From an uncultured Acinetobacter sp. (GTDB lineage: Bacteria; Cyanobacteriota; Vampirovibrionia; Gastranaerophilales; Gastranaerophilaceae): DNA of 33,328 nucleotides. Shown piece after piece: positions 5,024-10,708 of the stretch (the first letter of the stretch is position 1; each line of letters starts with the position of its first letter). Where the stretch lies: the NCBI GenBank assembly GCA_947306495.1, contig CAMZGT010000017.1:1-33328 (forward strand). Direction: 5' to 3'. The notes under the pieces were generated by a model. It worked only from the letters and a program-made list of their open reading frames with translations, was not told where the DNA came from and searched no databases. The position numbers were made by a program, and so were the translations under genes.

Positions 5024-5326
5024 TTACTCCTCCTCAAACTCATAATCTTCTGGCAGTTCAATACCATAACGCCTGCGGACGTATTCACGTCTGTAACGTT
5101 TTTCAAGTGCGTCTGCCAGACAGACCATTTCGTCAAAGTCGAGCTTTTTAAGCTTCTCATCGAGTTCCTCGTCAAGTTCGTTATCACGACATTTGACGAA
5201 TAACTCAATTGAGTTATGCACTAAGTCATACTCTTCGAAAAATTGTCTGTTTCCTACGTACGAGAGGTCTAGACTGCGTACGTTCAGCCTGTTGATTTCA
5301 TCAACGATGTACTGTACATCTGCCAT
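5024..5326 (-). CDS. Hypothetical acidic protein (100 aa)
   Basis: The protein starts MADVQYIVDEINRLNVRSLD and ends in a very acidic tail (LPEDYEFEEE) after a basic RYRREYVRRRYG stretch. ATG at 5326 is preferred over an upstream ATG at 5362 because AGGACGG precedes it at good spacing. The gene overlaps the last 26 bp of the putative replication gene, so the two are probably translationally coupled. No family recognised. Confidence 0.6.
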   Translation of the reverse strand: MADVQYIVDEINRLNVRSLDLSYVGNRQFFEEYDLVHNSIELFVKCRDNELDEELDEKLKKLDFDEMVCLADALEKRYRREYVRRRYGIELPEDYEFEEE

Positions 5327-6572
5327 TTTGTTTACCGTCCTTGTCGCATTGTGCGACATCATGTAATATCACATATTCGTGCAGACTATTTCGCTCCTTT
5401 AACAATCTCTGCACGATTGCATTGTTAAAGGTAATGCCTTTGTCTTTAAGGAAGCCATATTCAATGCCGATTCTGCTCAAATCATTGAGCCATTCGGCAA
5501 TTTGTTTAATTCTATGACCGTCCCAAAGGTTCATTAAATCAAGTTTATCAAGCAAGGTGTTAAGTGCTATTTGCAGTTTCTTATTCTTGCGTGTGAATCT
5601 TAGAATTATCCACAGATAGTCCAACCATGCTGCCAGCTTAGGTGCTTTTTTCGTGCCGGGGATTTTATTATAGAATCCATACTGGCGTTGGTTGTTCTGC
5701 TGTTGTAAATCCTGTGTGAGTCCGCTTGCAGTAAAGGTTATAAGGTCATTATTGATGGAATAATCGTCAATCAGACCATAGTATTTGAACGTTTCAAATG
5801 CACTTGTAATCATTTCCGGGATTGTCTCTGTACTGCGTGATAATTTTAGACCACATTTAAAGGTTTTATAGGGAACTCTAAATTCCATGCCAGTTTGCGA
5901 GGTGTCAAGGACGAATGTACTGTTTGTTATTGCTCTTGACACCGATTCAAACACTTTTCTCTCATTAACTGTCATAATTGGCGACGATAACAGGTTCAGA
6001 ATCGTTGCTGTTGAGATTCTGTATTTATTACCATGATTAATTTGGAAGTGATACCCCTGATGTTTTTCAATGTCATCTGCGACTTTCAGTATCTGCTTTT
6101 TTAAGTGCTGGCTAATCCTTGGGAGAGTTGCAAGAGTGTATTTTCTGTCTTTTTGTTCGTACACTTTGGGCATATACTTAGGTGAAAATGCTATCTTAGG
6201 TTCTTTTGTTACTTCAAGACAGTAGCAATTAAGCTCAGCTTTTAATTCCTCGAACATAGCCGAATCGTATCTGAAAAAGTATATCATTTTGTGTCGGAGT
6301 TTGTCTTCCATTGCAAGTGTATGTAAATCAAGTAACTTGAAAGATACAATGCTATCACACATAATTGCAATAACATCTTCTGGAAGTGTCATGCTAAATA
6401 ATAACTGCTTGTTATAATTGAAAAATTCAATAACATTCCCCACAGGTATATTACGCTGGTCTGGTTTATAACTACCCTTACTAAAATAAAGGCTGTTGAA
6501 CACAAAGCCTTGTTTATGCAGTTTGTCGAGTCTGCCCTCGATTTGTTCTTGAAAATTCTTTTCTTTAGACAT
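5301..6572 (-). CDS. Putative replication initiation protein
   Basis: A 423-aa basic protein with alternating predicted helices. Its middle has stretches consistent with winged-helix DNA-binding units (about residues 170-290, for example TATILNLLSSPIMTVNERKV), and its C-terminal part is strongly basic. I do not recognise a specific family. The replication role is inferred from size, basic character, the repeat-rich 690-bp region directly upstream, and the small CopG-like gene downstream. The start at 6572 is preferred because the GGAGAAG needed as ribosome binding site sits inside the alternative upstream ATG at 6587. An alternative is another DNA-handling protein of the element. Confidence 0.45.
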   Translation of the reverse strand: MSKEKNFQEQIEGRLDKLHKQGFVFNSLYFSKGSYKPDQRNIPVGNVIEFFNYNKQLLFSMTLPEDVIAIMCDSIVSFKLLDLHTLAMEDKLRHKMIYFFRYDSAMFEELKAELNCYCLEVTKEPKIAFSPKYMPKVYEQKDRKYTLATLPRISQHLKKQILKVADDIEKHQGYHFQINHGNKYRISTATILNLLSSPIMTVNERKVFESVSRAITNSTFVLDTSQTGMEFRVPYKTFKCGLKLSRSTETIPEMITSAFETFKYYGLIDDYSINNDLITFTASGLTQDLQQQNNQRQYGFYNKIPGTKKAPKLAAWLDYLWIILRFTRKNKKLQIALNTLLDKLDLMNLWDGHRIKQIAEWLNDLSRIGIEYGFLKDKGITFNNAIVQRLLKERNSLHEYVILHDVAQCDKDGKQNGRCTVHR

Positions 6573-6598
6573 TATAATCTTCTCCATGAATTAGGTTC

Positions 6599-6685
6599 TT
6601 TACATGTAAAATATAAAACTTTTTGTTTAACTTCTTTAACAAAAGAGTTTCTACATGAAAATCTAAATATTTCAGATTAACATGT
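6599..6685. promoter_or_regulatory. ACATG-containing palindromes upstream of putative rep gene
   Basis: TTTACATGTAAA (6599-6610) is a perfect 12-bp palindrome 26 bp before the chosen start. Further ACATG half-sites at 6653-6657 and ACATGT at 6680-6685 flank an imperfect 12-bp inverted repeat. Repeated half-sites like this would suit autoregulation by the encoded protein. Confidence 0.4.
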
Positions 6686-6718
6686 ATAACTAAAATCTAA
6701 TAATTCTAATCCGAGGAA

Positions 6719-6778
6719 ATGAATAACAATTTCTCTGCAAAAGAAAAACAGTTGCAAGTGCAACTGTAGCCTATTCAT
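6719..6778. repeat. Nested inverted repeats
   Basis: ATGAATA (6719-6725) and TATTCAT (6772-6778) enclose the perfect palindrome ACAGTTGCAAGTGCAACTGT (6748-6767). The structure could extrude as a cruciform or be a protein-binding site in the candidate origin. Confidence 0.55.
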
Positions 6779-6811
6779 CATTTATATGGAAAAGACCATA
6801 AGGTCTGTTGT

Positions 6812-6864
6812 TAGCTGGGTGAGGTAAGCTCGACCACGTCTCGCCTACCCCAGTTTAGTGTGTT
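6812..6864 (+). repeat. 53-bp repeat, copy 1
   Basis: This begins TAGCTGGGT and ends CCCCAGTTTAGTGTGTT, with a central GACCACGT. The arms CTGGG and CCCAG allow a hairpin with the GACCACGT near its apex. Copy 2 is at 6921-6973 and has exactly the same length; the arm and loop blocks are conserved while the bases between them differ. Confidence 0.7.
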
Positions 6865-6920
6865 ACTATAAAATATAATAATTCTGTATTCTGAAATAAA
6901 TATTTGTTTAACAACAACTA

Positions 6921-6973
6921 TAGCTGGGTAGGAACTGTGAGACCACGTTTGACCTACCCCAGTTTAGTGTGTT
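6921..6973 (+). repeat. 53-bp repeat, copy 2
   Basis: Same blocks as copy 1: TAGCTGGGT, GACCACGT and CCTACCCCAGTTTAGTGTGTT without its final base differing. Here CTGGGTAGG pairs with CCTACCC(C)AG, a 9-bp stem with one bulged C. Start-to-start distance to copy 1 is 109 bp. It could be an iteron-like site, a single-strand origin or a pair of structured RNAs. Confidence 0.7.
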
Positions 6974-7264
6974 GTAAGAGACTTACTTGTAACATCTCTA
7001 ATAATTAATTGGGGACTTTTTATTAAACTAATTGGGATTAAATGAATGAGATTTGATGTGATTAAAATCAAGTTATATATAGGTTGTGGGGATTTATGCA
7101 CAGCGGATGGTAGTATAAATGCTTTTAATGATAGCGATAATTCAAATTATTATAGCAACTGTTCTGCTGAATATAGCTCATTATTTGTTCTGTAATATCA
7201 ATATTTTTACTGTATTATAGCAGAAAACTATGCTGATATTGTTGAATTGTAGCAAATATTAAAA

Positions 7265-7513
7265 TTAACCCTGCATTAAATCATCAACGTCTATGTGATG
7301 TTCACGTGCATAGTCAATAAAACGTGCTTCTTTTTCAGTTAAACGTTTTGTGAAGTCTAGGACTTGACCTGTTACACGTTTCCTACCGCTGTTAGCACGA
7401 ACACCGCCCCATTTAGCAACAGTCTTTTCAACTTCTGCATTTATTTTGTCTTGGCGGTCTTTTGGTAGTGCGTTAATTAAATCATCATTAGTTATAATCT
7501 TAGGTTTAGTCAT
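7265..7513 (-). CDS. Putative antitoxin partner of the RelE/HigB-like toxin
   Basis: An 82-aa protein translated in an 8-bp overlap with the toxin gene before it (toxin first, antitoxin second, as in HigBA pairs). It contains a basic GGVRANSGRK motif near residues 36-45 and a charged helical C-terminus (LTEKEARFIDYAREHHIDVDD). The GGxRxxSGRK signature occurs in many small plasmid and phage DNA-binding proteins. I do not see a canonical XRE domain, so its identity as antitoxin rests on gene order and overlap. It may repress the pair's own promoter. Confidence 0.6.
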   Translation of the reverse strand: MTKPKIITNDDLINALPKDRQDKINAEVEKTVAKWGGVRANSGRKRVTGQVLDFTKRLTEKEARFIDYAREHHIDVDDLMQG

Positions 7514-7838
7514 CTGTTAGACTCCTTTTATAGCGTTCTATATTTCGTACTGCTTGCTTCATATACCGCTTCGGTGCTTCCTGTGTTTTCTTCAATGTTA
7601 TGAATCCGACTATGATTATTCGCCTACGGTCATTATCATATTGAAAGTATGCTCGCACACCTCTTGGTTTTATCTCATACAAGTCATAATCAAGTTTATT
7701 GATATTCTTGTACTTTGTTCCCAGTATCTCAAAGGATTTAATCGCACTTAAGATTTTGTTTTGACTCTCTGAGTCTAATTCTGCGTATTGTTCCAATGCT
7801 TCTGGAGTGTATTCTGCGGTATATTGTTTTTCTGTCAT
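7506..7838 (-). CDS. RelE/HigB-family toxin (Gp49-like)
   Basis: A 110-aa basic protein with the RelE/ParE/HigB-type layout: N-terminal helices (YTPEALEQYAELDSESQNKI), then LDYDLYEIKPRGVRAYFQYD and the strand RRRIIIVGFITLKKTQ, ending in a helix of the KRYMKQAVRNIERYK type. Family members are usually ribosome-dependent mRNA interferases. The motif ELK/EIKPRGVRAYF with conserved basic residues and the FxKKTQ strand end match the phage-derived Gp49-like/HigB group. ATG at 7838 is chosen because AGGTGG lies correctly before it. Role in the element: probable maintenance by post-segregational killing (inference). Confidence 0.85.
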   Translation of the reverse strand: MTEKQYTAEYTPEALEQYAELDSESQNKILSAIKSFEILGTKYKNINKLDYDLYEIKPRGVRAYFQYDNDRRRIIIVGFITLKKTQEAPKRYMKQAVRNIERYKRSLTDD

Positions 7839-7895
7839 TGTACCCACCTATATTATAACATGGTTTCGTTACGATTTCAAGATGTGTGTTAAGAA

Positions 7896-8736: not shown

Positions 8737-9810
8737 ATGACGGTTAATAAACATGACAATGGTAAATGGTATTGCAAGTTCACAATTAGAGGTGTAACTA
8801 AACATTTATTGTGTGCAGGTGCAACAACGGAAAAGGAAGCATTAGAAATAGAAAACGCTTTCAAATATAAGCTGCAACAACAATTAAATGGTGTGATACC
8901 TAAAAATCAGAAGAATGTATATTTTAACCGTCTTAAAGAGCTGTATATTAAACACGCTAAAACTAATCATAAGAAGTACAAGAACCAAATATACTACATT
9001 AATGCTTTAGAAAAGTATTTTAATAATGGTAAACCTGTTAATACAATTAAACCAGAGCATATTCAGAAATACATTGAATACCTTAGATATAGCGGTAAAC
9101 GTGGAAAGAGAAAAAACTCCAGTATTAATAGATTTCTGGAAATCTTAAGTAAGATGTTTAACTTAGCTATTGATAATGGAGAATTAACAGAAAATCCACT
9201 TAGGAAAATACCACCATTAAAAGAGGATAATCACCGTCCACGATTTTTGCTTGACGATGAAGAAATCCGACTATTTGCAAGTATTGATACTTTTGCACCA
9301 TATTTAAGACCAATAGTAACTACTGCTTTGGAAACTGGTATGCGTAGAGGAGAAATCTTTGGTATGAAATGGTGCAATATAGACTTTATTAATCGCAACA
9401 TTTATGTGCTAGATACTAAATCTGGTGAGAGTAGAGAAGTACCTATAACGGATAAAATGTATGATTTATTACAATCATTACCCAAAAATTCAGAATACGT
9501 ATTTACTAATCCTAAGACTAATAAGCCTTATGTTGATATTAAGAAGTCATTTAATATGGTAAAGGAACATGCACAAATAGAGAATTTCCACTTTCACGAC
9601 CTTAGGCATACATTTGCAACGCGTATGCTATCAGTAGATATAAATAATCTATATCCACTAATGGAAATTCTCGGTCATACAAATATAGAAACTACTATGA
9701 GATATTCCCATATAGTACCGGGTAGGAAAATGGAAGCAATTAAGAAACTGAAAAATTATAACAAATTATATACAACAATTAGTGGCAATTGTGTCACTAT
9801 ACAAGAATGA
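8737..9810 (+). CDS. int: Tyrosine recombinase integrase
   Basis: A 357-aa site-specific recombinase. The N-terminal about 60 residues look like an arm-binding domain (NGKWYCKFTIRGVTKHLLCA), residues 62-155 form the SAM-like core-binding domain, and residues 170-340 the catalytic domain. All catalytic residues are visible: Arg203 in GMRRGE, Lys228 in DTKSGE, His287 and Arg290 in HDLRHTFATR, His314 in LGHTNIETT and the nucleophile Tyr323 in MRYSH. It is a full-length member and seems functional. Its target is very probably the tRNA-Met anticodon arm, since the element ends are there. Unusually the integrase gene is about 0.9 kb from the right end, with another gene and a tRNA between. Confidence 0.95.
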   Translation: MTVNKHDNGKWYCKFTIRGVTKHLLCAGATTEKEALEIENAFKYKLQQQLNGVIPKNQKNVYFNRLKELYIKHAKTNHKKYKNQIYYINALEKYFNNGKPVNTIKPEHIQKYIEYLRYSGKRGKRKNSSINRFLEILSKMFNLAIDNGELTENPLRKIPPLKEDNHRPRFLLDDEEIRLFASIDTFAPYLRPIVTTALETGMRRGEIFGMKWCNIDFINRNIYVLDTKSGESREVPITDKMYDLLQSLPKNSEYVFTNPKTNKPYVDIKKSFNMVKEHAQIENFHFHDLRHTFATRMLSVDINNLYPLMEILGHTNIETTMRYSHIVPGRKMEAIKKLKNYNKLYTTISGNCVTIQE

Positions 9811-10364: not shown

Positions 10365-10545
10365 GTTTTATTTCAATGAACTATAATTATCAGCCGCTCT
10401 ATTATAAGGTGGTTTTTTTTAAGCATAACATTTATTCAGACCATAATTACAATAACCTTGAAGAAATTGACATTAATTTACAACAAATATTGCTCATAAT
10501 AATTATTGATAATTCACACCACTAGAATTTAATTCAAATCAATAA

Positions 10546-10563
10546 GTGGACACAGAATGGACA
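10546..10563 (+). repeat. Candidate integrase arm site, right end
   Basis: GTGGACACAGAATGGACA matches the left-end copy at 485-502 in 16 of 18 positions. It ends 11 bp before the 3' end of the element-borne tRNA-Met. Confidence 0.45.
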
Positions 10564-10574
10564 CAAAAAAAATA

Positions 10575-10648
10575 TAGCTGAGGACAGATTTGAACTGTCG
10601 ACCTTGCGGGTATGAGCCGCACGCTCTCACCAACTGAGCTACTCAGCC
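10575..10648 (-). tRNA. tRNA-Met(CAU), intact, element-borne
   Basis: A 74-nt cloverleaf on the minus strand. The acceptor GGCTGAG pairs with CTCAGCT, the D arm is GCTC..GAGC, the anticodon arm is TGCGG CTCATAC CCGCA with anticodon CAU, the variable loop is AGGTC, and the T arm is GACAG TTCAAAT CTGTC. The discriminator is A and CCA is not encoded. It lacks initiator features (a paired first base, no triple G-C anticodon stem), so it is an elongator Met, or less likely a lysidine-type Ile tRNA. It differs from the rebuilt target tRNA at 13 positions, of which 12 form six compensatory pairs in stems, so it is under selection to fold. It lies 45 bp inside the right core and so belongs to the element. 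Confidence 0.9.
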
Positions 10649-10693
10649 ATATTCATGTTTTCTATTTAATTTTCAATTTTGCTTGGGAACTCT

Positions 10694-10708
10694 CGGGTAT
10701 GAGCCGTG
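10694..10708 (+). repeat. Right attachment core (attR)
   Basis: CGGGTATGAGCCGTG, identical to 389-403. The element-side flank GAACTCT and the left element-side flank TCCAGAG give the joined attP a short dyad (CTCT and AGAG) around the core. Confidence 0.85.

Follow-up and report, generated by a model that had tools for sequence, protein, structure and literature searches.

A probable RNA copy-control leader upstream of a Rep-like gene on an integrative plasmid-like element of uncultured Gastranaerophilales

Introduction

Two 53-bp repeats stand upstream of a gene for a Rep-like protein in a contig of an uncultured bacterium of the Gastranaerophilales; the whole stretch analysed, 33,328 nt long, is referred to here as the window. 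The initial annotation regarded the repeats as paired hairpins of a plasmid replication origin, and the locus raises the question of whether they belong to such an origin or to the control of the neighbouring gene. A search of the literature by title found no title on plasmids or mobile elements of this order, or on this system. Plasmids are mentioned 19 times in PMC4451040, a paper about the related Vampirovibrio.

Results

The repeats lie on an integrative element

The window contains a complete, plasmid-like integrative element of 10.3 kb, which is integrated at a chromosomal tRNA-Met and has the following landmarks.

389-403: left att core of 15 bp, CGGGTATGAGCCGTG, adjoining the 3' half of the split tRNA-Met
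5301-6572, minus strand: gene of the Rep-like protein, with the start set at a conserved MSK/MAK/MVK position
8737-9810, plus strand: tyrosine integrase of the element (PF00589, 1.4e-30)
10574-10649, minus strand: complete tRNA-Met brought by the element
10694-10708: right att core, the identical 15 bp, adjoining the 5' half of the split tRNA-Met

When the flanks outside the element were joined, ARAGORN found a complete tRNA-Met restored, while either flank alone gave none. The tyrosine integrase and the direct-repeat att sites restoring the tRNA identified it as a tRNA-targeted integrative element. Of 58 genomes from the genus, 52 had the gene beside the tRNA-Met target, and an intact tRNA-Met was located near it in seven of nine relatives examined, the other two having a tRNA-Arg and no tRNA, respectively. 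Besides HTH genes and a serine recombinase, the element carried a Gp49/RelE-like gene that is paired with a small partner.

The Rep-like protein stands outside the families searched

An in-frame ATG was found upstream of the chosen start of the Rep-like gene, at 6587. The protein showed no match in Pfam or PHROGs at 0.01 or in PADLOC at 0.1, nothing at E 1 against PDB sequences with either the single sequence or a profile, and no counterpart in the viral contigs, plasmids and phages searched. The RepA_N domain was absent, as the window protein had no Pfam family at 0.01, and RepA_N was not among the five Pfam families matched at E 1 by any of 12 proteins (the window and 11 relatives). The best Pfam entry for the window protein at E 1, Dimer_Tnp_hAT (0.016, below its own cut-off), was judged to be a chance match.

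AlphaFold models were of moderate quality, with a mean pLDDT of 64.6 for the whole protein and 69.1 for the C-terminal half. In the structural comparison of the C-terminal half, pPS10 RepA was listed first (Z 6.2, rmsd 4.6, 97 aligned) and pi, RepE and RctB were also among the rows, with unrelated winged helices tying with them; a Z below 8 is no proof of structural kinship. The check for a paired winged-helix initiator gave best Z values of 6.9 and 6.2 from these moderate models, and Foldseek returned nothing at E 0.001 for either model. The N-terminal half weakly resembled prim-pol folds (Z 6.9), but the alignments contained no conserved DxD pair by eye and a primase reading was dropped. The name Rep-like was given because of the weak fold resemblance (Z 6.2), the position of the gene and the neighbouring arrays. 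The gene is unclassified and is a candidate initiator gene.

A leader layout recurs in related elements

When 383 genomes of the order, a sample from a larger group, were searched, 18 of them contained a relative of the Rep-like protein, and a profile search detected relatives in 19 of 383 genomes of the family. The two draws overlap, and together they yielded 22 loci; of 13 loci with record titles, 10 belonged to Candidatus Gastranaerophilales MAGs and three to uncultured bacteria. The region upstream of the gene in the window was resolved into the following features, where R1 and R2 denote the two repeats and SD a Shine-Dalgarno sequence.

6577-6587, minus strand: rep SD stretch, ATGGAGAAGAT
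6691-6702, plus strand: box 1, TAAAATCTAATA, between P2 and the rep SD
6719-6778, minus strand: outer palindrome ATGAATA/TATTCAT, which encloses P2 and forms the inner part of P1
6748-6767, minus strand: P2, a terminator-like hairpin after which the rep-sense strand reads TTTTCTTTT
6786-6796, minus strand: anti-SD, GTCTTTTCCAT, predicted to pair with the rep SD (-13.4 kcal/mol)
6794-6805, minus strand: P3, hairpin GACC-TTAT-GGTC, which in the rep-sense direction follows immediately on the 3' side of R1
6812-6864, minus strand: R1, a predicted hairpin in the rep-sense leader (fold z -2.3 on the minus strand) that shares its head and tail with R2
6869-6880, plus strand: box 2, TAAAATATAATA, between R1 and R2
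6921-6973, no strand assigned: R2, with the head and tail of R1 and a different middle
7145-7260, no strand assigned: putative iteron region of TATAGCA-type repeats, recognised by eye from its position and its likeness to L022 and L040

An R1/R2 pair was present at 15 of the 22 loci, namely the window, G048, two in G303, G059, G314, G079, G243, G113, G155, G088, G064, G087, G042 and G106, the last with its Rep-like gene cut off by the contig end. Six relatives had a simpler leader without the pair by eye (G159, G169, G312, G344, G001 and the third in G303), where G344 offered 225 bases upstream only. The weak match in G284 (59 aa, E 8e-4) was set aside because no such leader was seen upstream of it. 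On the rep-sense strand the 15 leaders had the same order of R2, box 2, R1, P3, anti-SD, P2 with its T-run, box 1, rep SD and rep start. The recurrence looked for in related elements was thus found as a layout, constant in the window and 14 other elements, with repeat letters that differ between elements and a spacing of the two copies of 81 to 117 bp. As the leader of L041 (G303) was nearly the same as that of L040 (G048), it was excluded from the counts for 14 elements given below.

Some elements departed from the two-copy arrangement. In L028, at about 10378-10631, the R1 module was tandemly duplicated (107 bp), which gave three R copies, and three copies were also seen in L044. The genome G303 carried three elements with Rep-like relatives (L023, L032 and L076); the heads of its two elements with an R pair were different, and the last 11 bases of the tail were common to both.

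The two repeats share head and tail with sharp borders

Rechecking of the letters confirmed two repeats of 53 bp, in which TAGCTGGGT, GACCACGT and CCTACCCCAGTTTAGTGTGTT are exactly the same and keep their register. The 109 bp originally given as the distance between them is the start-to-start distance, and the gap between the copies is 56 bp. The 21-mer tail of the repeat, searched with up to three mismatches, occurred in its own genome (1,649,605 bases) at R1 and R2 only, and the pair is therefore not due to chance. Among the 383 genomes of the order, the same search found it in its own genome only, so that what recurs is the layout and not the letters. The exact tail was absent from the viral contigs searched.

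Over 14 elements, the identity between R1 and R2 was 26% in the left flank, 100% in the head, 66% in the middle, 100% in the tail and 36% in the right flank, with 12 head/tail types among the 14. Since heads and tails were found via exact matching, the values of 100% are partly by construction, and the informative part of this comparison is the sharp border of identity at the same place in each element. The borders in 14 elements and the pair in 15 speak against a simple duplication, which the initial annotation had set against a selected structure. Conserved arms and a loop had also been proposed; the head, the loop piece and the tail are indeed shared, but the shared pieces do not make up two complementary arms.

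Such a pattern would be expected of two sites for a single ligand. The preferred ligand would be an RNA, because relatives with similar Rep-like proteins have different head/tail types. Two other ideas on the repeats were discarded. The self-complementary ACGT loops of the window were absent from L040 by eye, and pairing of the R tail or head with P3 or the rep start was no general rule, being strong (about -15) only in L042 and L052 of the 14 and moderate (-8.0) in L043 and L045.

The leader is predicted to sequester the rep SD

P3, whose hairpin strings were first read by eye, was present in 19 of 21 leaders and missing in L035 and L036. Pairing between the stretch adjacent to P3 and the rep SD was evaluated in 17 of the 21 extracted leaders, with the duplicates L041 and L076 left out. 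In all 17 the stretch was able to pair with its own rep SD, at -7.5 to -14.7 kcal/mol, and the best SD partner within 400 nt lay no more than 5 nt from this stretch in 12 leaders and elsewhere in five. For 10 distinct classes, the mean anti-SD/SD energy was -11.9 kcal/mol for cognate combinations against -6.8 kcal/mol for swapped ones, and 1 of 100000 permutations reached the cognate value. The cognate SD ranked first in four classes, second in four and third in two, as related SDs resemble each other. Covariation of P1, the pairing of the anti-SD with the rep SD, was also calculated over 15 leaders, and 0 of 100000 permutations reached the cognate mean. This comparison shows that the predicted anti-SD and the rep SD change together across elements.

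The minimum-energy fold of the last 420 nt contained the SD helix in eight of 15 leaders (the window, where it had 10 pairs, L040, L041, L042, L046, L048, L051 and L052), and the helix was missing from the fold in seven. The RNAalifold consensus of alignment A4 was without P1, because MAFFT had misaligned the SD region. Taken together, P1 is a predicted leader stem that sequesters the rep SD. No consistent SD-freeing sequence was found upstream of P3, and no conserved small ORF with an SD, as expected of a leader peptide, was found in the leaders.

A terminator-like hairpin is nested in the SD helix

The nested palindrome of the initial annotation was real, with ACAGTTGC...GCAACTGT (6748-6767) inside ATGAATA (6719-6725) and TATTCAT (6772-6778). 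A scan of 6550-7300 detected P2 on the rep-sense strand as the only terminator-like site, where 0.2 were expected. The T-rich stretch after P2 had at least 7 T in 12 bases in 17 of 19 leaders, and the T count after P2 averaged 7.8 in 17 leaders, compared with 4.3 for random leader windows (maximum 6.3 in 2000 draws). By its sequence, P2 is terminator-like, and it stands ahead of the rep SD in the leader. The anti-terminator pairing with P2 was predicted at -7.0 kcal/mol in the window and at -3.9 to -8.1 kcal/mol in 16 other leaders. The leaders of L035 and L036, without R1/R2, had a strong anti-terminator (-16.0 and -13.7 kcal/mol, respectively) in an attenuator-like layout.

The strand that folds was deduced from wobble pairs. 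Stems of P2 were picked by a strand-neutral score, and on the rep-sense strand the P2 pairs of 20 leaders comprised 219 Watson-Crick, 11 G.U, one A.C and one other. The 11 G.U pairs are A.C mismatches on the other strand, and the rep-sense RNA is therefore the folded strand. From the pairing counts, the leader structure is predicted to be RNA, a rep mRNA leader. The pairs of R1 in 14 elements were 117 Watson-Crick, six G.U and two A.C, and those of R2 were 81 Watson-Crick, no G.U, eight A.C and five others.

Covariation within the hairpins was also calculated. For P2, 0 of 100000 permutations reached the cognate mean (11 leaders, arms hand-listed). The R1 arms, with 11 distinct among 14 elements, gave 2 of 100000 on the minus strand and 3 on the plus strand, and R2, with 12 distinct among 14, gave 1468 and 28947, respectively; the permutations ignore relatedness (the tree), and the significance of all these values is overstated. 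Whole-arm changes between subfamilies were visible by eye. The high counts for R2 mean that it is not a convincing hairpin. Compensatory change across homologues was accordingly seen for P1, P2 and R1 and not convincingly for R2, and the paired hairpin originally described held in part: R1 folds well on the rep-sense strand, and R2 folds in the window with marginal support across relatives.

Covariance-model and Rfam searches

A covariance model spanning R1 through the rep start was built from 10 relatives; R1, P3 and P2 are part of its consensus and P1 is not. It was run on 14 sources, four with training sequences and ten others, and among the ten it matched L022 at R1 (E 0.0035). The only match listed for the window was weak (6658-6866, minus strand, E 0.26), the leader of L024 gave E 0.86, and that of L035 gave E 4.2, below two matches elsewhere. 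No match was obtained up to E 5 in L025, L036, L037, L074, L075 and L076. The model also matched the R2 module in L027 and L028, and other matches with E above 0.5 fell at places without meaning. In 363 genomes nine were matched, all of them training-source genomes and all at the Rep-like gene, and the window's own genome was unmatched under stricter filters. The model thus lends weak support to the predicted leader. The Rfam search proposed for the repeat gave no match to a curated control RNA: two tRNAs alone reached the gathering score in the window, and the plasmid control families gave none at E 10 in 6560-7270 and none at E 2 in five relatives.

Boxes, DnaA boxes and iteron-type arrays

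The box motif TAAAATNTAATA occurred 28 times in 14 leaders (two each, except three in L028 and one in L025) and never changed its orientation; the remaining 243,202 bases of these loci contained it once. A 15-base form was present twice in the window's own genome, both times in the leader, and 1, 1, 4 and 0 times in four control genomes without the element; some element-bearing genomes hold one 15-base box elsewhere. A -35-like TTG 17-18 nt before box 2, inside the R1 tail, was among the three best plus-strand scores in seven of 14 leaders, of which the window was not one. The promoter scan of the window region gave one promoter-like site against a shuffle average of 4.8, no excess.

Past R2, iteron-type arrays with a best period of 22 exceeded all 60 shuffles in 10 relatives. 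In four elements the period was 21, and the array exceeded the shuffle maximum in L040 and L042, just reached it in L052 and fell short of it in the window (periodicity 0.48, shuffle maximum 0.49). The DnaA-box-like sequences cited in favour of an origin were at chance level, with one exact match, TTATGCACA at 7094-7102, and seven in the window against 6.8 expected. The origin claim is thereby upheld in part. The Rep-like gene, the integrated element with att sites, the 22-bp arrays in 10 relatives, the layout in 14 others and the compensatory change of R1 and the nested palindrome agree with it, but the repeats are part of the leader of rep, which separates rep from the array, and are not in the array itself, the R2 hairpin is unconvincing, the DnaA box is at chance and the window array is not above shuffles.

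Discussion

We read the region, with a probability of about 0.6, as an RNA copy-control leader of the Rep-like gene on the 10.3-kb integrative plasmid-like element. The comparison of leaders has shown a conserved folding capacity of the predicted rep-sense leader, with an SD lock and a terminator-like hairpin, and in relatives the leader would adjoin an iteron-type origin. The rep-sense RNA can fold such that the anti-SD beside P3 closes over the rep SD (P1) with P2 nested inside; the R1 hairpin stands on the 5' side of this P1/P2 structure, and R2 is a second copy further upstream with the exact head and tail of R1. The rep mRNA would be transcribed through the leader. An opposite-strand RNA from around box 2 and R2 may set the folding of the leader by pairing with the matching head and tail of R1, its presumed target. 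On pairing, the leader would stop at P2 or hide the SD, resulting in less Rep and a lower copy number of the excised circle. Specificity would reside in the head and tail, and this would account for their match within an element and their difference between elements.

A more far-reaching version, which we put forward tentatively as rather improbable in full, is that an RNA of a new class controls replication. Here the box that separates the copies would drive divergent transcripts, a rep leader starting with R1 and a small RNA carrying R2; the small RNA would recognise the leader solely via the matching head and tail and would switch the nested terminator and SD lock. The head/tail types would then represent compatibility groups within a family of integrative plasmids that have an unclassified initiator and belong to uncultured Gastranaerophilales.

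The leader could also be an attenuator controlled by a protein, with no antisense RNA, in which R1 and R2 bind an RNA-binding regulator such as Rep itself. The T-rich stretch that follows P2 in most leaders would suit this arrangement, as would repeats sharing head and tail and not the middle, which is how two sites of one protein would look. Relatives with closely similar Rep-like proteins have different heads and tails, however, and base pairing explains this better than one conserved protein does; we hold protein control to be possible at rather long odds. That the repeats act instead as DNA in the replication origin, as single-strand initiation hairpins or as sites for Rep or a repressor, with the control of rep incidental, we consider unlikely. 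Their position between rep and the iteron-type arrays of relatives, the fairly constant spacing of the copies and the element-specific box motif would be accounted for by DNA function, whereas the asymmetry of the wobble pairs assigns P2 (11 to 1) and, for the most part, R1 (6 to 2) to the rep-sense RNA, and the anti-SD covaries with the SD. R2 has no clearly kept hairpin, and the arrays are alike across relatives with differing R tails, which also speaks against DNA function.

The tandem duplication in L028 and L044 demonstrates that copying of an R module happens, and R1 and R2 might be a plain, functionless duplication that has drifted. This is very improbable, as the fall in identity is abrupt and comes at the same borders in each of the 14 elements compared, the middle differs, and the pair recurs in 15 elements. 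In kind, the proposed RNA copy-control leader is similar to the leaders of pSK41 and pIP501.

Plasmid pT181 has an attenuator-type rep leader of the same kind as pIP501. The pIP501 rep leader is about 300 nt long with termination before the rep SD (PMC4981023), and the terminator-like hairpin in the element's leader is similar to this. Unlike in pIP501, a strong anti-terminator was predicted only in the relatives L035 and L036 of 19 leaders, no CopR-like partner was assigned in the element, and its protein stands outside known Rep families. In the RepA_N plasmid pSK41 (PMC5703833), rep is controlled by RNAI, a stem-loop at the end of the leader sequesters the ribosome binding site, and the antisense target lies about 100 nt upstream. 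The element is predicted to share the leader control of rep through such a stem. It differs from pSK41 in that its protein has no RepA_N match, its antisense RNA is putative, and it has two matched repeats and a terminator-like hairpin nested in the SD helix.

The exchangeable control module REx-C of Pseudomonas has stem-loops upstream of rep, as does the element, and a few base changes in the stem-loop alter incompatibility (PMC5304414). The same paper reports a pPsv48C minimal fragment without obvious iterons, unlike the relatives with arrays, and a leader peptide gene in several modules, whereas a conserved leader ORF was not found in the element leaders. SGI1 is a replicating integrative element with rep and iterons (PMC7433901), to which the element, with putative replication, is similar; there, unlike in the element, oriV is downstream of rep and the activator of a helper plasmid switches rep on. 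The iteron initiators pPS10 RepA, pi and RepE resemble the Rep-like protein in the rows for its C-terminal half model (Z 6.2 to 5.1) and in the 22-bp repeats of the relatives, and differ in that the Rep-like protein has no Pfam match and has an extra N-terminal domain.

The locus points to a replication module, a candidate initiator with a putative control RNA, in an order represented here solely by uncultured MAGs. A matched repeat pair combined with a nested terminator and SD lock would be a testable copy-control design, and it may be a starting point for a replicon that works in these gut bacteria.

Other observations on the element and its relatives

A 435-aa protein encoded inside the element (597-1904) was without a Pfam, PHROG or PADLOC match and is possible cargo. 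The small protein and the Gp49/RelE-like protein at 7265-7847 were 94-98% identical in L022, L023, L029 and L030, where the adjoining rep was only 26-62% identical; this suggests that the two may be a mobile toxin-antitoxin-like pair. Direct repeats of at least 40 bp were located at tRNA-Leu (L025 and L035) and tRNA-Glu (L037), which suggests that they are putative att sites of other elements in the family.
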